From: a virus
DNA: 22,535 nucleotides
IMG/VR virus record: IMGVR_UViG_3300006192_000042
Location: 1-22,535 of that record
Direction: 5' to 3' (one strand)
In this document: positions 5,421 to 15,884 of the stretch, in pieces
Numbering within the stretch: the stretch's first letter is position 1
How the letters are laid out: every line of letters starts with the position of its first letter
Position numbers and translations under genes: made by a program
The notes under the pieces: model-generated
Databases searched by the model: none
What the model was told of the DNA's origin: nothing
The model's input: only the letters and a program-made list of their open reading frames with translations

Positions 5421-5433
5421 TTAATATTAATTT
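5407..5433 (-). terminator. A/T-only inverted repeat over the end of the 906-aa gene
   Basis: Perfect 11-bp arms (5407-5417 and 5423-5433) flank a 5-nt loop and span the TAA stop of the 906-residue gene. The stem is entirely A/T, so it would be a weak hairpin, and it overlaps the candidate promoter at 5398-5420. It could be a weak terminator or simply part of the promoter's A/T-rich block. Confidence 0.3.
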
Positions 5434-8147
5434 ATATTTACATTAGAGAAAATATATCTAAAAGAATGTATTTCTCCAGTACCAATTAACTCAAGCTCAA
5501 TTGATAAGCCTTCATTATTATCAGTAGGAATTTTAATTTCTTCTACTGCTATCTTATTAGAACTTATTGTATCAGATAATACTTCTACCTCATCTACATA
5601 TATAGTAAAAGTAAAGTCTCCTTTATATGTAAGATTTATCTTTTCAAACTCTGTAAGTATATCATAACTATTACCTATAAACTTAGGAGCTTTATAATGT
5701 AACTCTAAATAGCCACCAACTTTATCTAAAATATCTTCATATAAGCTTCCATCAAATTTACCATAGAGTTTACCTTTATATACTGTAATAAAATCTATAT
5801 TAGTTAATTTACAAAATGATGGACTATTATATCTAAAATCTACAGCCATAGTATAGTTTTCACCAACCAAATAATAGACACTATTATAAACTAAAGAAGT
5901 ATAAATTTCACCTATGTCTGTTAAGTCTACTTTCTCTTTAGATAAATTAGAAACTACAGAACCTACTGATAACATAAGACCTTCATAGTCTAACCAAATA
6001 GCTGTATTTTTTAAGTTAGCTATAGATTTATATGATATACAACCACTAGTTTTAGTTAATGAACTAAGAGTAAAGTTATATTTATCTGTACCCCCTAAGA
6101 GATAAGTTTGGCTATTAGTTGTAAAAATAAGTACTCCTAATGGTGTTGAAGCTAATCCACTAACTTGACCCCCTACTCTAATACTATTAAATTCACTCCA
6201 CATATTTGGTTTACCAGGTCTAGAGAAATAAACTATGTTATTTTTATAAGCATACATAGTACCTTTATGCTCGACTAGTTGCTTTAAATCTTCTATTACT
6301 TTTAAATTTTGTGTATCTAATATATAAGGATTATACTCTTCAGCTAAAGTATCTCTATAAGTAGTTGTACCTGTAGTAGCTATATTATCTATTTCAATTA
6401 CTAATCTATATGAACTACTATATCCACCTAGTCTATATACTCTAATAACGTCAACATTAGTTTCAGTTGAGTAACTAATGTTTGTAATATCTAGCTCATT
6501 AGTTTTCTTTAAGAATGTAGCACTAAAAACTGGAGCAGATTCAAAACCAGAGTCTCTATCATAATAAGTATAAGCATATGTATACTCTTCCCATAGTTCT
6601 TTATCTAGTTCAGAACCGACAGCATTAACATTAGGTGTAGTAGCTGGTACTATCATAGATACTGGTATTAAGTCATCCACAGTAGCATTATCTGATAAAC
6701 TAGCATAATCTAGTTGATATACTTTAGTATAAATAGGATTTTCTGTAGTTAAATACATAAAGTTACCTAGTTCTACCATACTAAAAGGGTAGCTATCTGA
6801 AAAGTAATAATCATTTGGTAAAAATTTAAAATAAGCATTAGCTATTTGGTTTATAGCTAAAGTACCTTTTTTTTCACTTTGCATAATACCTTTATCAATA
6901 TTAATATTTTTATATATACTTCCTTCATTAGCAGCTAGCAGATTTGAAGCTAATATTTCACTTAAGCCTCCTCTATAGTCTAAATATACAGCTTGTTGTG
7001 ATTTCATATTATTCTCCTGATTTAATTTTGGTTGTATAAACTTCTTAGGTGTATACAATTTTGGTTGACCTCTTAATAAATTATTAGAGGCAGTAGTTAT
7101 TAAGTTTGGTAAAAACTCTTCATTAAATAACTCATTTCTTACTATGTTATCAATATCACTATCTCCACCAGAAGAAATACCATTTACTAAACTATTAGCT
7201 ACTGAGTTAACAGCATTATTATTAGTTGGTGCACCTAATGAATTAGCAACTGTACTTATGGTTTGCAAAGAATCATATAAACCTTTTATACCTGCTATAC
7301 TTAAGCCTAAGCCAGTAATTCCACCTATAGCTCTACCTGCACTCAATATTTGCATACTAGGCATTGCTATATTTGCTAAAACTGAAGCTATCTCAGCTAC
7401 TGCAGCTAAGCCAATAGTAGTACTCTTACTAGCTCCTAAGCTTTCAGCTATATCTGCTACAGCTTCAGCAGCAAAACCAAACTCTGTATTATTAGCACCC
7501 CAGTAATGGGTATTAAATGAAAACGAAGTAGTACCTATACCTACTGTAGTATTATGCTGAGTAATTGAACCTTTTTGACCAGTAGTAAAGGTATTTAGGG
7601 TATTAACCATACCAAAGACAGCTATAGAAACATCTAGACCACCTAAACTATTAGCTATAGATGTAGTAACTGTCTTTGTATTATTAAAGAATCCAAAATT
7701 AACTTCAGTAGTAACAGTAGCTTCATTACCTACAGTATTAACACCCTCAACTACCGAAATAGTATTATCTTTCATAGTAACAGAATATAAAGGAGCATTA
7801 GCTCTTACACCAATACCAAGCATACCAGCTTCAGCTATAGCATCCATTTCTTTTTGGCTAGCCATACCTACTTGTGTAGCTACATTAGAATTATTACTGC
7901 CTTCACCTCCTTCACCTCCATCACCACCAATAGAACTACCACCAAGACCAGATCTCCCAGAGCTAGTACGACTACCTTCAGCAGATAAGCTAAGGCCTTC
8001 AGGGCCACCAGCTGATACACCAATAGAAGCTCCAACTGCATCGGCAGCTTCACCTACACCACTATCTCCACCACCACTATCTCCACCTTCTCCACCATAT
8101 AGTTTAATAGGAGTAAAATAATAAACTAGAAAATCTATAACATTCAT
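5427..8147 (-). CDS. Tail tube/DNA stabilisation-type protein with 380-residue N-terminal extension
   Basis: This single 906-codon frame appears to join two proteins. Residues about 18-85 are extremely Gly/Ser/Glu-rich and low-complexity, 100-240 look beta-rich, and 240-292 are hydrophobic and Gly/Ala-rich. From residue 381 (MKSQQAVYLDYRGG) onward the sequence looks like the large beta-propeller-like tail proteins of podoviruses (P22 gp10 or T7 gp12-like roles), with many Tyr-rich beta strands and the typical VYFSRPGKPNMW segment. That protein would plug or extend the tail below the portal. Met381 has its own strong AGGAG site, so a shorter 526-residue product may also be made. The gene starts in an ATGA overlap with the upstream 99-residue gene. 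The C-terminal assignment is reasonable; the role of the N-terminal part is unknown. Confidence 0.65.
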   Translation of the reverse strand: MNVIDFLVYYFTPIKLYGGEGGDSGGGDSGVGEAADAVGASIGVSAGGPEGLSLSAEGSRTSSGRSGLGGSSIGGDGGEGGEGSNNSNVATQVGMASQKEMDAIAEAGMLGIGVRANAPLYSVTMKDNTISVVEGVNTVGNEATVTTEVNFGFFNNTKTVTTSIANSLGGLDVSIAVFGMVNTLNTFTTGQKGSITQHNTTVGIGTTSFSFNTHYWGANNTEFGFAAEAVADIAESLGASKSTTIGLAAVAEIASVLANIAMPSMQILSAGRAIGGITGLGLSIAGIKGLYDSLQTISTVANSLGAPTNNNAVNSVANSLVNGISSGGDSDIDNIVRNELFNEEFLPNLITTASNNLLRGQPKLYTPKKFIQPKLNQENNMKSQQAVYLDYRGGLSEILASNLLAANEGSIYKNINIDKGIMQSEKKGTLAINQIANAYFKFLPNDYYFSDSYPFSMVELGNFMYLTTENPIYTKVYQLDYASLSDNATVDDLIPVSMIVPATTPNVNAVGSELDKELWEEYTYAYTYYDRDSGFESAPVFSATFLKKTNELDITNISYSTETNVDVIRVYRLGGYSSSYRLVIEIDNIATTGTTTYRDTLAEEYNPYILDTQNLKVIEDLKQLVEHKGTMYAYKNNIVYFSRPGKPNMWSEFNSIRVGGQVSGLASTPLGVLIFTTNSQTYLLGGTDKYNFTLSSLTKTSGCISYKSIANLKNTAIWLDYEGLMLSVGSVVSNLSKEKVDLTDIGEIYTSLVYNSVYYLVGENYTMAVDFRYNSPSFCKLTNIDFITVYKGKLYGKFDGSLYEDILDKVGGYLELHYKAPKFIGNSYDILTEFEKINLTYKGDFTFTIYVDEVEVLSDTISSNKIAVEEIKIPTDNNEGLSIELELIGTGEIHSFRYIFSNVNIN
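7005..7018 (-). promoter_or_regulatory. Internal Shine-Dalgarno and ATG inside the 906-aa gene
   Basis: On the minus strand AGGAG (7014-7018) stands six bases before an in-frame ATG (7005-7007), which is codon 381. The spacing is ideal and the site is as strong as the true start sites in this operon. It falls exactly where the Gly-rich/hydrophobic part ends and the tail-protein-like part begins. It implies a nested 526-residue product (5427-7007), or a past fusion of two genes. Confidence 0.6.
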
Positions 8148-8443
8148 TTTACTCTCGCTTTAATAGTACCATTAGGTAATATTTTAATTATTTTACACAT
8201 TTTTAATATACTTTTATTTTTAGTATATATTATTTTATTTCTACATAAATAGCTATAATCTAATAGAAATCTTAAGTTATTTTGCTTAGTATCACTTAAA
8301 ATTAGGTAATAAATAAAATCATTATTACCAATAAGACAACAGTTATTATGGTAAACTAGAAATGTTGATTTTTTAATACTATTCATAATATCTTGTAAAT
8401 TAGCTATTTCTGGTGGTAATTTATTAAGTAAAAGCTCAAACAT
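8144..8443 (-). CDS. Hypothetical 99-aa protein downstream of the ketosynthase
   Basis: The function is not recognised. The protein is 99 residues, basic and Ile/Leu/Asn-rich, with several beta-like stretches (STFLVYHNNCCLIG, FIYYLILS, KIIYT) and a basic C-terminus. It has four cysteines, including a CC pair, but no CxxC zinc motif. It starts one base after the ketosynthase stop and ends in an ATGA overlap with the 906-residue tail gene, so it is translated as part of this chain. Its position makes it a possible third member of the ACP-ketosynthase set. A very reduced acetyltransferase-like fold is conceivable from the strand pattern, but this is a guess. Confidence 0.6.
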   Translation of the reverse strand: MFELLLNKLPPEIANLQDIMNSIKKSTFLVYHNNCCLIGNNDFIYYLILSDTKQNNLRFLLDYSYLCRNKIIYTKNKSILKMCKIIKILPNGTIKARVK

Positions 8444-8444
8444 A

Positions 8445-9296
8445 TTAGTCCTTATTTAAAATACAACTACCATAAAAACCACCTAATCCAGAGGCAACAC
8501 AAAGAACTTTACCTTTTATACTTTTATCTTCATAAGCTAAAAGTAATTCTATTAAAGCACTAGCTCCTTGACAATGTCCAATTTTATTTTTATAGTTTAA
8601 TATTTTATAACCTTTATAAGCCTCTTGTTCAGCTTTATTATTTACTTCTGTACCTGTACCATGTACTTTAATTATATCAGCTTTAGTAAATACTTGTTTA
8701 TACCCATTAACTGTTGTCATAAAAGGATTAGAATTATACTCTGCATACCATTTTGCATTAGATATATCATTACCTTTAGTTAATACTATAAAAGCAGCAC
8801 CTTCACCAAGTTTTATATCTATATTACTTTGTTTAAATACTCTAAGAGTACTATAACTAGTTTTTTCTTCTGCAACTATTATAACATTATCAACTATACC
8901 AAGTTCTAATAGTATATTAGCATGAAAAATTGAGTACATACTACTAGCACAAGAATTAGAATTAATATCCATAAAAGTTATATTATTATTTTTACTTAGT
9001 ATTTTCATATATTTATGAGCCATATAAGCAGTTAAGTCTTTAACTGATACCCTGGTTTCACCTCTACTAATAGAGAATTCAAAATCTAGAGGTATTTCTC
9101 TATCTTCACCTTGTGGTTTAGAAATACCTACAGCATAAAGTAAAGCAGTATTACCTTCCAGCTTTATATTAGATAAATACTCTTTAAATATTTTTATATA
9201 CTGGTCTGTCATATAGTTTTTTCTATCTTGTAGTAATCCTATTCTATCTTCTTCATTTATTGTACCATGAATATATTTATAACTTTGTATTTTCAT
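8445..9296 (-). CDS. Compact beta-ketoacyl-ACP synthase-like protein
   Basis: This 283-residue thiolase-fold condensing enzyme is of the FabF/FabB/KS type, joining an acyl group to an ACP-bound malonyl unit. The active-site nucleophile is Cys116 in NSNSCASSM, matching the TACAS/TACSS motif. The family motif GEGAA lies at 164-168, the first catalytic histidine is His212 in VHGTGTE, and Lys236 and His241 lie in KNKIGHCQGASA, five residues apart as in FabF. The C-terminal GLGG at 270-273 matches the usual GFGG loop. All catalytic residues are therefore present. The protein is much shorter than the roughly 410 residues of FabF: about 50 residues are missing before the Cys, and the region between Cys and the first His is also shortened. 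It overlaps the ACP gene by 20 bp and has a strong AGAGGAG site. It might condense, decarboxylate or merely transfer acyl groups; the substrate is unknown. Confidence 0.85.
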   Translation of the reverse strand: MKIQSYKYIHGTINEEDRIGLLQDRKNYMTDQYIKIFKEYLSNIKLEGNTALLYAVGISKPQGEDREIPLDFEFSISRGETRVSVKDLTAYMAHKYMKILSKNNNITFMDINSNSCASSMYSIFHANILLELGIVDNVIIVAEEKTSYSTLRVFKQSNIDIKLGEGAAFIVLTKGNDISNAKWYAEYNSNPFMTTVNGYKQVFTKADIIKVHGTGTEVNNKAEQEAYKGYKILNYKNKIGHCQGASALIELLLAYEDKSIKGKVLCVASGLGGFYGSCILNKD

Positions 9297-9501
9297 TATA
9301 TAGCTCCTCTAATTTAGCTGGTGTAATAGTTTCTATAGGAAATTCTTTTAAATAATCATCTTTCATAAAAGGATATTCAGCTTGTACTTCATTTAATACC
9401 ATAACAACACCAAAACTATCTATTCCACTTTCTACTAATGGAATATTTAAACCATATATTCCGCCTTCATTTTCTATTTGTTCTTGTATATATTCTTGCA
9501 T
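9277..9501 (-). CDS. Acyl carrier protein
   Basis: This 74-residue acidic protein has the classic carrier-protein attachment site: Ser29 within VESGIDSFGVV, equivalent to the LGxDSL motif of AcpP, where a phosphopantetheine arm would be attached by a host transferase. The sequence after it (VLNEVQAEYPF) matches helix II, and the C-terminal TITPAKLEELYNE matches the last helix (the Tv.dLv pattern). Helix I is slightly short. It has a strong AGGAG ribosome site 8 bp after the fibre-like gene stop and overlaps the ketosynthase by 20 bp, so the two are co-translated and are almost certainly partners. No other fatty acid synthesis gene is visible, so malonyl transfer, reduction and dehydration would have to come from the host. 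Confidence 0.88.
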   Translation of the reverse strand: MQEYIQEQIENEGGIYGLNIPLVESGIDSFGVVMVLNEVQAEYPFMKDDYLKEFPIETITPAKLEELYNENTKL

Positions 9502-9509
9502 AATATCTC

Positions 9510-11075
9510 CTAGGTATAAAAATCTGGTGCTTTATTAAGTGTACTATCTCTATCAGCTTGATAATGTAAATCAGCCATTAAACCATAAACATTGCTACCA
9601 TAAGTATCTGTACCTCTTTGTACTTTAATACTAACTACTGTATCTGGCTCAATTAAATCAAAAGCATCTATATCTGAGCATTCAGTTACCATATGTTCTC
9701 CAGCTACCTCAGTACCATCAGATATATGTGTTATAGTAAATGAAACTGGAGTAGCTAATAAGCTCTCTCCTTGTTGATGCCCTTTAGCAATAATATAACT
9801 TATATTCCATATAACTGTTTCACCTAAGGTCATAGTAGTAGTAGGCATCCAGTGAATATGTATATAAGCACTTGTGCCTCTAGCATAATCATGATTTACA
9901 TGATAATCTATAAAAACTTCATTACCATCACTAAAAGCTAGTCTTACAAAACCATTACTATCAGTAGCTTCAGATGGAGCTGAAGCACCTTTAATAGCTA
10001 AAGTAAAAGGTACAACATTATCTTTCCAACCTATGTCTTGAGCAGATGATGAAGAAATTAATTTTGATGCTTTATTTCTAATATCTACTATTTCTGCTAT
10101 AGAAGCTGTACCTTGGTCTATAATTATTAAGCTTAGTGGTTCTATCTCTGAGCCTATATCGCCATTAAAAATACCTAGATTTGGATTAGCATTAATGGCA
10201 TCTGTTAATTTATTATAAACTATAGTACCATAAGTAAAATAAATAGTTTCAGTTCTAGAGCTTCTAGATATTGTATGTGTAACATACTTATTATTAGGTA
10301 TTAATGCTAAATCTGTACCATTATCATAATTAGCTATATCAACTACCAAAGTAGTTTCAGGTTGTAATTGATATTGTCCTGATATATTATACATCTTTTG
10401 TGCTACTATATTTAAAGTTTGCGTAATAGTTTTAGTCTCAGCATTAGGAGTATTAATTTGCCCTTCTGCTATATCTAGGTGAAGAGGGTTACTTATATTT
10501 TGTGTAATTAATCCTGCTTGTAAACTAAATATTGTACCCTCAAAAAACTTAGACCTTATATATATTTTCTTAATAAAATCTAAGGATAAGAAAAAACTAT
10601 TACCTATCTTATTAATAGTATTAGTATCAGTTTTACTAAATGCTGTTAGTTCTAGTTTACCATCATTTAAATCTGATGTACTTGGAAATTGATTAGGTAA
10701 TAAAGTAACCAAACCATTTATATCTATAATAGCTGAGGCAAAGTTACCACCTGATATAGATATAGTATCTATTATAGCCCCATTATATACTTTTTTAATA
10801 CCATTAATATAATATATACCTGAAGCTATATTAAAATACCTAGGGTTAGCATTAATAGTTATATTCATACCAGAAATTATACCATGTAGTTGGTGATATG
10901 ATAAGCGTTCAGAATTTTCATAAATAGTATCTAAATCATTCTGGTCAATAGAGTCTAATATAGCTTTATTACTATGGGTATGAGATACTGTAGCTGCTTC
11001 TGTACTTCTCATTAAAGCTCTATGAGCAGCTCTATCCATCTTATGATTATTTGTACTACTTATATTATTATTCAT
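9510..11075 (-). CDS. Tail-fibre-like/virion structural protein
   Basis: This is a 521-residue beta-rich protein. Near the N-terminus it has the SHTHSNKAILDSI motif (residues about 31-43), common in phage fibre and appendage proteins. The middle is Thr/Asn/Ile-rich with beta repeats. The last ~150 residues match a common phage C-terminal domain with the pattern YIHIHWMP, then VIWNISY, and a final MADLHYQAD...NKAPDFYT, typically a trimeric jelly-roll-like tip found on fibres or capsid-associated proteins. It follows the endolysin and precedes the ACP. The ribosome site is weak (AGTAGT) compared with its neighbours, which may mean lower expression. It might be a head or side fibre rather than the main tail fibre. 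Confidence 0.7.
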   Translation of the reverse strand: MNNNISSTNNHKMDRAAHRALMRSTEAATVSHTHSNKAILDSIDQNDLDTIYENSERLSYHQLHGIISGMNITINANPRYFNIASGIYYINGIKKVYNGAIIDTISISGGNFASAIIDINGLVTLLPNQFPSTSDLNDGKLELTAFSKTDTNTINKIGNSFFLSLDFIKKIYIRSKFFEGTIFSLQAGLITQNISNPLHLDIAEGQINTPNAETKTITQTLNIVAQKMYNISGQYQLQPETTLVVDIANYDNGTDLALIPNNKYVTHTISRSSRTETIYFTYGTIVYNKLTDAINANPNLGIFNGDIGSEIEPLSLIIIDQGTASIAEIVDIRNKASKLISSSSAQDIGWKDNVVPFTLAIKGASAPSEATDSNGFVRLAFSDGNEVFIDYHVNHDYARGTSAYIHIHWMPTTTMTLGETVIWNISYIIAKGHQQGESLLATPVSFTITHISDGTEVAGEHMVTECSDIDAFDLIEPDTVVSIKVQRGTDTYGSNVYGLMADLHYQADRDSTLNKAPDFYT

Positions 11076-13165: not shown

Positions 13166-15037
13166 TTAGTTTTTTCCTCCCATAATGATTAAAGAAGCTA
13201 CCTCGGTATCAACCTGTATAGTAGCAGTAGCATATACTTCTAATTTACAGTAAGTAGTAGAAGTTGGATAACAAGCAACATTTCTGTCTGATGGGTCATT
13301 AGAAGAGGCTCCTGCTGAAGCAGCACCTACATAATTAGTAGTATCCATACTCTCATTAAAATATACATCGTAATTACCAGTAGTAGTTCTTACTACATCA
13401 CTAACATTAAAACTATCTCTAATAGTAGGAGGTGTAGTTGTACCATCAAAGTTTACCCAAGCTGTACAAGAGTTTTTACCTTCTACTTCTGCTATAACCT
13501 TATCAAACTTAGCTACACTCTCAACTATCTTAGGAGCACCTTCCATATAGTGTAAAGCTACTGGAACTCCACCTACTACTTCTACTCCTAGTAATTTACC
13601 TTTTTCGTTATTTAGATATGTGAATTGAGGAGAGTATGCAGTACCCGAAGTTGTTCCAAATATGCTAACATTATCTATTCTTGATGTTCTATTAGCACTA
13701 GTACCATGACTTAGTGCAAAAACAATGTTACCACTAACAGTAGGTGTATAATTAAAAGTATGAGTACCAACTATATTTGCTCCCGTACCTCCTATAAGAA
13801 TACCATCCATATAGAAATAAATCCCGGCTATTGCATCAGAAGCTACAATATCAAACTTTATTGTAAGTTTCTGACCAGCTATAACACTTATTATAGTTTC
13901 TGCTTTAGAAGAAACATCTCCGTTTAAATCTGCCATGATAAGAGAACTATCAGAAGAACTCCAACTTAATGTTATATTTGCGTTTGATGCAACCCATCCA
14001 CTAATATCAGTATCAAAAGTTCCATTAGTAACTAACTCTGTCATGATAGTTGAAGACCATAAGCCATTAGTATATATTGGTCTGTCTTCATCTATCATAG
14101 TAGCAAAGTACATACCCCAACTAGGCTTAGTTAATGTAGCTTCACTACTCCCGTCTGCAAACATCTTAACATAATTTATACCATCAGCATATCCACCCAT
14201 AGGATTAATAGCGCCATTTTTAACTATTACAGTATTTTTAATGGCTGTTGTGCTTCCACTAGCAATAGACACTAATAGATTATTACCATATAATGTACCA
14301 CTAGATATTGAGCAGTCTCCTTTAAGTGTATAAGATACTGATGTAGTTTCAGGTATATTAGCAATAGCATCTAATGTTGCTGTTGATATAGGCTTATTTA
14401 AATCTGATGTATTCTCTACATTACCAAGTCCTAAATTTATTCTAGAACCAGAAGCACTAGACACATCAGATAAATTATTAGAATTAATTAAAGCTCCACC
14501 AAGAGAGGCATAAGCTGCAACCCAACCAGTACCTAAAATATATACTTTCATTAAATGGTTATTAGGGTCAATATCAGAAGTATCAAGGTATAGCTCACCT
14601 CCACTTAAAGCTTCACCATTTAAATTTAAAGTTGGCTCAGTATTTGAAGCACCTAAATATACTCCATTTAAATATACTTTAGCACTATCTGCTATAACTG
14701 CACTACCACTAGCTTGGCTAGCTGAAAGTGAAGCTGATGCAGAATAACCTGAAGCTTGGCTAGCTGAAAGTGATGCTGATGTAGAATAACCTGAAGCTTG
14801 GCTAGCTGAAAGTGAAGCTCCACTAGCTGAACTACTAGCATCTATAGAGTAAGACTCTGTTCTATTTATAGCTTCTAATAGGGTTTCTGTTTCACTAAAA
14901 GGTAAGTTACTAGCATTTATTTGTGTTACTGAAACAGCTTGGCCATTTCTAGTTTGTGTTTCAACTCCAAAACCTACTGTTAAGTCTTCTAGACCAACTC
15001 TACCTCTATACGTTTTTGTTATATTATCATTTGCCAT
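13166..15037 (-). CDS. Tail fibre/receptor-binding protein with 14-residue repeats and carbohydrate-binding-like domain
   Basis: This 623-residue protein is counted from ATG 15037, which has AGGAT at good spacing. An in-frame ATG at 15079 would add 14 residues lying inside the previous gene and lacks this site. The N-terminal ~50 residues form a beta-rich attachment-like domain. Residues about 60-110 carry repeats of the form SASLSASQASGY. Around residues 332-460 lies a jelly-roll-like region beginning LVTNGTFDTDISGW, the typical start of CBM_4_9-type carbohydrate-binding domains, and the C-terminus is beta-rich. This fits a receptor-binding fibre that contacts surface sugars. It sits between the adaptor and the assembly-like protein. 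No lyase or hydrolase motif was seen. Confidence 0.78.
   Translation of the reverse strand: MANDNITKTYRGRVGLEDLTVGFGVETQTRNGQAVSVTQINASNLPFSETETLLEAINRTESYSIDASSSASGASLSASQASGYSTSASLSASQASGYSASASLSASQASGSAVIADSAKVYLNGVYLGASNTEPTLNLNGEALSGGELYLDTSDIDPNNHLMKVYILGTGWVAAYASLGGALINSNNLSDVSSASGSRINLGLGNVENTSDLNKPISTATLDAIANIPETTSVSYTLKGDCSISSGTLYGNNLLVSIASGSTTAIKNTVIVKNGAINPMGGYADGINYVKMFADGSSEATLTKPSWGMYFATMIDEDRPIYTNGLWSSTIMTELVTNGTFDTDISGWVASNANITLSWSSSDSSLIMADLNGDVSSKAETIISVIAGQKLTIKFDIVASDAIAGIYFYMDGILIGGTGANIVGTHTFNYTPTVSGNIVFALSHGTSANRTSRIDNVSIFGTTSGTAYSPQFTYLNNEKGKLLGVEVVGGVPVALHYMEGAPKIVESVAKFDKVIAEVEGKNSCTAWVNFDGTTTPPTIRDSFNVSDVVRTTTGNYDVYFNESMDTTNYVGAASAGASSNDPSDRNVACYPTSTTYCKLEVYATATIQVDTEVASLIIMGGKN
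14712..14819 (-). repeat. 42-bp tandem repeats in the tail fibre gene
   Basis: Units start at 14712, 14754 and 14796 with an exact 42-bp period. Each holds a near-identical core gcttggctagctgaaagtga and encodes the 14-residue unit containing SLSASQASGY. The third copy is partial. The identity at DNA level would allow copy-number change by slippage or recombination, altering fibre length. Confidence 0.85.
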
Positions 15038-15038
15038 A

Positions 15039-15884
15039 TTAAAATCCTGTCTTATAAGGTACTTCTGGGTAATCAACACCTTGGTAACTATTAGATGTTC
15101 TACCTATATCTTTTTTTAACTCTTTATTATATTTATCTATAAAAATACTAGCTTTATTAATATTTTCTGTTCTTGAATCATCTAATAAAAGCGTACCAGC
15201 AACATAATAAACTAATGTATTTTTATAAGAATCATCTAAATCTACTACTGTTGTGAATATGTTAGTAGTTGTATCTAATAAATCTGGTTTAGCAAAATAA
15301 GTAACTTCTAATGTTATAAATACATCAGATAAACTAAGTATTGGCTCATATCCCCTTAATTCTATCTTATCATAAACATTCATAGGTACTATAATATCTT
15401 CAAAATCCATAGAAGTTATTAAACCATAAACACTATCAGAAGGCACATTTGGTATATCAATCAATAATGTTCCTGCTGTATTATTATTTAAGGCTGTATA
15501 AGTTGTACTTGTTTCTTTTAATAAAGGAAATAGTGTAACTTGCTTAGGGTTTTGTAGGTCATAAACTATTGCTTCTAGTCTTTCACCAGTTTTTGTTTCC
15601 CATTGTCTATGGTGCTTATCCATTTCATTATGTGTTAGTTTATTAATATCTTTACCATTTTGTCTAACTCTTTGTAAGCTTAAAAATTGTTCATCAGGTA
15701 TAATTAGATATTTTTGGTAAGGTAGAATAGGTATAGCCATTACTTTCTTTTTAACATTAGCTTTTTTACCTAATTCTTCTAAACCCTCATTAATAAGTTC
15801 TATAATTCTACTATTAGTAAATTTTCTACCAACAGTATCTCCAACTTTAGGTCTAATCTCATTAAACAAGGTTTGTATAGTCAT
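15039..15884 (-). CDS. Head-tail adaptor/virion structural protein
   Basis: This 281-residue protein begins with a helical region (TIQTLFNEIRPKVGD, then RIIELINEGLEELGKKA), followed by a mixed domain with YLIIPDEQFLSLQRVRQNG and a beta-rich C-terminal part ending in a helix with DDSYKNTLVYYVAG. This layout, an N-terminal helical bundle that 'counts' sample positions and then a beta domain, is that of phage adaptor or connector proteins in podoviruses, which form a ring under the portal. It follows the capsid genes and precedes the fibre. The ATG has AGGAAATATT upstream, right after the hairpin at 15902-15930. The precise family is uncertain. Confidence 0.65.
   Translation of the reverse strand: MTIQTLFNEIRPKVGDTVGRKFTNSRIIELINEGLEELGKKANVKKKVMAIPILPYQKYLIIPDEQFLSLQRVRQNGKDINKLTHNEMDKHHRQWETKTGERLEAIVYDLQNPKQVTLFPLLKETSTTYTALNNNTAGTLLIDIPNVPSDSVYGLITSMDFEDIIVPMNVYDKIELRGYEPILSLSDVFITLEVTYFAKPDLLDTTTNIFTTVVDLDDSYKNTLVYYVAGTLLLDDSRTENINKASIFIDKYNKELKKDIGRTSNSYQGVDYPEVPYKTGF

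Follow-up and report, generated by a model that had tools for sequence, protein, structure and literature searches.

What use could a tailed phage make of an acyl carrier protein (ACP) and a ketosynthase (KS) encoded among its virion genes? The question is raised by a virus record of IMG/VR (IMGVR_UViG_3300006192_000042), whose entire 22,535 nucleotides (22.5 kb) are here called the window. One long minus-strand run of this DNA holds terminase, head, tail-type, and portal genes, arranged in the order terminase, scaffold-like protein, major head protein, fibre, endolysin, 521-aa fibre-like protein, ACP, KS, a 99-aa open reading frame (ORF), a 906-aa protein, ejection protein (PHROG 21132), and portal. 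The endolysin matches Peptidase M15 (Pfam), the major head protein is 39–40% identical to that of Edwardsiella phage KF-1, a Kafunavirus, and the window phage is a Kafunavirus-like podovirus. Matches of the same head protein were weak when used toward host assignment.

A preliminary description of this locus, made from the letters of the window alone, had proposed two overlapping genes for ACP and KS, located between a fibre-like and a stabilisation gene, similar to these in ribosome-site strength and overlaps, and made late together with the virion. The overlap can be read directly from the sequence (Table 1), and strong Shine-Dalgarno-like sites precede both genes (AGGAGATATT-ATG for ACP and GAGGAGCTATATA-ATG for KS). 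The placement within the virion operon also holds, but the KS does not border the 906-aa gene, from which it is separated by the 99-aa ORF. Late expression of the pair is probable from its position, because it is embedded in the virion operon.

Table 1. Coordinates of the ACP-KS pair and its neighbouring genes in the window.
Feature	Position	Strand	Basis or remark
Fibre-like gene of 521 aa, its end 8 bp from ACP	9510..11075	(-)	Putative; no Pfam or PHROG match
ACP, 74 aa	9277..9501	(-)	Ser29 of GIDSF at 9415-9417, predicted phosphopantetheine site
Overlap of ACP end and KS start, 20 bp	9277..9296	(-)	Direct from sequence
KS, elongating Cys-His-His type, 283 aa	8445..9296	(-)	PF02801, AF2/Foldseek, conserved catalytic columns, phage clade
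KS catalytic residues	Cys116 8949-8951, His212 8661-8663, Lys236 8589-8591, His241 8574-8576	(-)	
99-aa ORF, one base after KS	8144..8443	(-)	Same place as gene X in other phages; position only
906-aa protein of stabilisation/internal virion type, after the module	5427..8147	(-)	PHROG 511, E=3e-35

Taken singly, the window ACP matches PF00550 at E=0.048, which is under the gathering score of Pfam. A profile built from the phage ACP family (30 members, 12 of which match PF00550 at E≤0.1) retrieves acyl carrier proteins of the PDB with E-values starting from 5e-6, and the attachment serine given in the preliminary description is intact. Every one of the 106 distinct phage ACPs retains Asp-Ser, a count that is partly true by construction since the motif used for picking them includes the serine. 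A motif-bearing ACP ORF was present at the expected place in 139 of the 141 KS loci of the first round. With its conserved serine at a helix II start and its ACP-like sequence, the window protein is of the ACP type, and phosphopantetheine attachment to it is predicted. PHROG 28189 and PHROG 35856 are both listed as being of unknown function; their matches to the proteins of the window and of phage ctpbd312 (see below) indicate an acyl carrier protein and a ketosynthase, respectively.

The window KS is recognized by PF02801 (E=3e-5) and also by KAS III-type N-terminal domains of Pfam. Foldseek searches with its AF2 model (pLDDT 83, pTM 0.84) gave 876 matches at E≤1e-3; among these, all 50 that were listed are ketosynthases or ketosynthase-containing synthases. 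All four catalytic residues of the preliminary description are present, and alignment to FabF (reference residues His304, Lys336, and His341 of FabF as translated here), the Cys column of the family, and the AF2 fold together reveal the Cys-His-His triad plus Lys in a predicted thiolase fold. Among the loci listed, which comprise 203 distinct sequences, His, Lys, and His of the catalytic columns occur in 242 of 242 phage KSs and Cys in 241. The sole exception (L166:2272-3381) has Arg replacing the catalytic Cys, and is either a real variant or an assembly error. Lack of an ACP or KS fold, or loss of the catalytic residues in all relatives, had been named beforehand as grounds for abandoning the identification; instead, the KS fold is predicted and the residues are kept. 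The resemblance of both ORFs to ACP and KS is far beyond chance, and we put the probability that the window genes are a conserved, catalytically intact ACP-KS pair at about 0.95. The fixed position in the virion operon, and the small size and divergence of the window KS, would also agree with a co-option of both proteins as virion or assembly parts that have lost their enzyme action. This is improbable, however, because next to no variation is seen at the ACP serine and the four catalytic positions, in contrast to the wide variation of other columns.

The pair had been presented as an isolated case, a view that no longer holds: it belongs to a widespread phage module, which usually has a third, GNAT-fold gene (X) adjoining. 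Scans of viral contigs with the ctpbd312 KS, a two-sequence alignment, and a DNA pattern for HGTGTxxNN yielded at least 250 loci, a few contigs being represented twice. The ACP-then-KS arrangement was found in more than 200 viral loci, where the two genes mostly overlap by 4 bp. A strict ACP motif lies just upstream of KS in 218 of the 253 listed KS loci, with the modal 4-bp overlap in 134; the remaining KS loci are mostly truncated, motif-variant, or divergent. Stabilisation protein, ACP, KS, X, and ejection protein is the usual order across loci, and KS, ACP, and X are under purifying selection (median pairwise dN/dS 0.075, 0.081, and 0.081, respectively).

Within 50,697 phage records searched by tblastn, ctpbd312 (MW202545.1, Manatee Spring) is the only genuine member. 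Its ACP, KS, and X genes likewise come straight after the stabilisation gene; its KS is of the long type (366 aa in our reading) and shares about 23% identity with the window KS in the part that could be matched, and its ACP is a 93-aa ORF with IDSLD before the KS that is annotated as hypothetical. Further "phage" records, among them ones of Listeria, Enterococcus, and Staphylococcus, gave KS matches that were rejected as members; these records are unannotated, and the three examined are marked unverified. The KS of the Staphylococcus "phage" record groups with bacterial FabF in the tree and is not of the phage clade. Records OR846837, OR848561, PQ520154, OQ572406, OR844991, and similar ones (Listeria, Enterococcus, Pseudomonas, and Staphylococcus) contain FabF-like bacterial genes and are probably host DNA. 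The single match of a viral-contig scan with the ACP only (L144) was spurious.

The nearest relative of the window is one IMG/VR contig (L201/L379), whose KS is 42% and whose ACP is about 30% identical to the window proteins. There, the overlapping ACP and KS genes are followed by a 145-aa ORF and then by a 762-aa protein. No further close kin were found in viral contigs scanned with the window KS, the portal, and the A3 alignment. A phage-like contig (L385) in the bin of Sulfurospirillum sp. UBA1314 carries a KS (1819-2721) that is 33% identical to the window KS. Its ACP (SEIDSFG; 10739-10993) belongs to the same late run but is located about 8 kb from the KS, and adjoins a 151-aa ORF at the X position. 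Among 397 Campylobacterota genomes, this Sulfurospirillum contig was the only one with a KS of this type. A contig of a Balneolaceae MAG (L335/L387) harbors a KS of the long type that belongs to the phage clade, which might point to the host of this branch.

In a tree calculated without FabH, 36 phage KSs form one clade (100/100) versus 27 bacterial KSs; a smaller earlier tree with FabH and one mis-framed bacterial row did not separate the groups. The window KS lies inside the phage clade and is grouped with those of L379 and L262 (100/100), where flagged long branches make the placing of short KSs tentative. The phage proteins resemble FabB/FabF (KAS I/II) and AcpP in the Cys-His-His-Lys set, the thiolase fold, the separate small ACP, and its DSL-type site. 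They differ from FabB/FabF in that they have HGTGTxxNN (with Asn for the FabF Asp) instead of HGTxTxxGD, a length of 283–400 aa, and their own clade. The gatekeeper residue is Met or Leu in 36 of 36 phage KSs, but Phe in 25 of 25 bacterial KSs, and scores of 16.6 and 98.6 bits against the FabF equivalog TIGR03150 stay far below its cut-off of 493.75. Unlike in type II fatty-acid synthase, the phage genes form part of a virion operon and are not accompanied by other fab genes.

These features bear on the possibility that the pair acts late on the fatty-acid synthesis of the host, raising or redirecting it and altering membrane lipids before lysis or feeding replication, so that both genes would be auxiliary metabolic genes whose place in the virion operon sets only their timing. 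In profile searches the phage KS is nearest to enzymes of the FabF/FabB type, and the host pathway would have to complete the reactions since the phage is without other pathway genes. Phosphopantetheinyl transferase, malonyl transferase, and SDR-type ketoreductase were not detected in 15 phage records of 52–72 kb, and host enzymes must therefore serve the pair. Phages with ACPs are known as well: solitary phage ACPs (PMC5463345, PMC11705849) and an ACP with an ACP synthase in cyanophages (PMC3037559) have been reported. On the other hand, a dedicated ACP would be pointless if the host ACP sufficed, and a host-derived auxiliary gene should nest among its bacterial homologues, whereas the phage KS constitutes a separate clade with a long stem and is no recent copy of a host gene. 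The replacement of the FabF gatekeeper Phe in every phage KS of the tree also speaks against this role, as does the location of the pair, which in hundreds of genomes stays fixed amid genes for tail and ejection proteins, auxiliary genes being typically scattered. We regard a contribution to host lipid synthesis as rather doubtful, although it ranks next after the acylation of a phage protein considered below.

The phage ACPs reported earlier (PMC5463345, PMC11705849, PMC3037559) also differ from the window pair in having been described without a ketosynthase partner and in being treated as auxiliary metabolic genes, while the window pair is part of a virion operon. Also reported is a fabG-acpP-fabF set in predicted prophages of Rhodobacteraceae (PMC8224337), in which an ACP and a ketosynthase likewise occur inside a predicted prophage. 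However, this set includes fabG and is not a virion-operon pair, and it may be a host operon, because its genes are arranged as in the fab operons of bacteria, a likeness noted in the same paper. In the literature searched, which was mostly open-access with few subscription papers, no ACP-KS pair among phage virion genes was found described, in agreement with the preliminary description, which knew of no characterised phage system with such a pair among tail genes. The enzyme families themselves are known; new here are a distinct phage KS clade and its unreported genomic setting.

Gene X (about 150 aa) comes next after KS in 185 of the 215 listed loci that have a downstream ORF. Its AF2 model (pLDDT 95.6) finds its best PDB matches in GNAT acyltransferases (Foldseek E=1e-4, TM about 0.5), and X is predicted to have a GNAT acyltransferase-like fold. 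Scans of X members against Pfam and NCBIfam returned no acyltransferase family. The CoA-pyrophosphate loop R/Q-x-x-G-x-G/A is absent; the loop that joins strand 4 to helix 3 has N-x-D-T/I-A/G/P instead, its N-x-D being invariant at this place. By-eye likeness of X to T7 gp13 was unsupported by hhalign. The comparison also gave no support for homology of the 145-, 151-, and 99-aa ORFs at the X position to X; the window ORF was not significant against the X profile in hhalign and shares its position only.

Conversely, ACP and KS are located just upstream in 74 of 75 X homologues with enough upstream sequence, a linkage that may be overstated because the survey kept only the best 80 of 328 X matches, those nearest L204. 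One locus (L496:2800-5500) has the stabilisation gene, a small gene, and X in succession but no ACP-KS, and thus resembles an "empty site." Given this locus, and since many uncultured phages have X-like folds, X may act in virion assembly independently of the pair. The empty site, the distance of about 8 kb between ACP and KS in the Sulfurospirillum-contig phage, and cultured Kafunavirus relatives, which are without the pair, would be compatible with a cassette gained and lost without tight integration and serving another late function, e.g., superinfection exclusion through a change of the envelope. In most loci, however, the position is otherwise the same, and we consider such a loosely held cassette very unlikely.

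Acyl-ACP-dependent acyltransferases with a GNAT fold include the HlyC-type toxin acylases as well as LuxI and FeeM, which are enzymes of signal synthesis. With these, X has in common a GNAT-type fold beside a source of acyl-ACP, its own function being only proposed; the family scans of X gave no sign of a relationship in sequence. The example of LuxI and FeeM would agree with the production of a small acyl or beta-ketoacyl molecule (a signal, inhibitor, or precursor) that is released at lysis, and a KS with a dedicated ACP forms the core of small dissociated acyl or polyketide pathways. Still, no additional tailoring genes were found beside the pair, and a location among structural genes is atypical for such a pathway, which makes this product an unlikely one.

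From its sequence features, the window pair is best read as an active, phage-specific acyl-condensing pair that is made late, and its function might proceed as follows. Phosphopantetheinyl transferase of the host would load the ACP at Ser29, and host enzymes would provide the malonyl and acyl groups. Cys116 of the KS would then take up the acyl group, and condensation with malonyl-ACP would be mediated by His212, His241, and Lys236, the product perhaps being processed by host reductases. Late in infection, the phage would finally turn the acyl group to its own ends. A separate late use of the acyl chain is suggested by the dedicated carrier and the intact KS, which are fixed beside ejection genes. 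The chain could be attached covalently to a virion or ejection protein, the enzyme perhaps being the GNAT-fold protein whose gene adjoins KS in most family members, and the modified protein would thereby be helped to enter or cross membranes. Acylation of a virion or ejection protein is, tentatively, the likeliest role of the pair, with catalysis, product, transfer step, and target all being proposed here. Its most specific version, according to which many aquatic caudoviruses have a protein-lipidation system of their own, with ACP and KS making the chain and the GNAT-fold protein acylating a protein of the tail or of ejection ahead of packaging, and with virions that thus contain a membrane-active protein bearing a lipid, appears rather doubtful to us. 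A phage coding for ACP and KS only would also fit a decoy or sink, which would shut down host lipid synthesis by drawing off malonyl or acyl groups or by competing for AcpS of the host, but decoys would be expected early and need no tie to ejection genes, and this explanation is quite improbable.

For acylation, the N-terminus of the protein encoded after X is a candidate target. Residue 2 of this ejection gene is S, G, A, P, or T in 175 of 177 distinct proteins and, because this residue is small, the N-terminal amine is likely exposed after removal of Met; a small residue 2 is equally expected from the shared ancestry of conserved homologues. In L204 and other loci, the product of the gene after X begins with M-[SGA]-[AG]-V, and long amphipathic V/E/D repeats come next. 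Unlike the ejection proteins after X, the 906-aa protein of the window starts with MNVID, where residue 2 is not small.

The presence of an intact KS and an ACP beside ejection genes in more than 200 phage loci makes acyl chemistry part of the late programme in a large group of phages, almost none of which has been cultured. Its carriers, mostly uncultured aquatic phages, number in the hundreds, and the gene set should build a fatty-acid-like chain. For years, phage ACPs have been described with no role assigned to them; since here the partner enzyme, a candidate neighbour with a transferase fold, and candidate targets are all adjacent, the question of their role becomes directly testable. If virion proteins are indeed lipid-modified, this would represent a new principle of membrane crossing by tailed phages, and protein lipidation could be a use for the enzymes. 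Elsewhere in the window, SASASLSASQASG stretches recur in the fibre gene (13166-15079).
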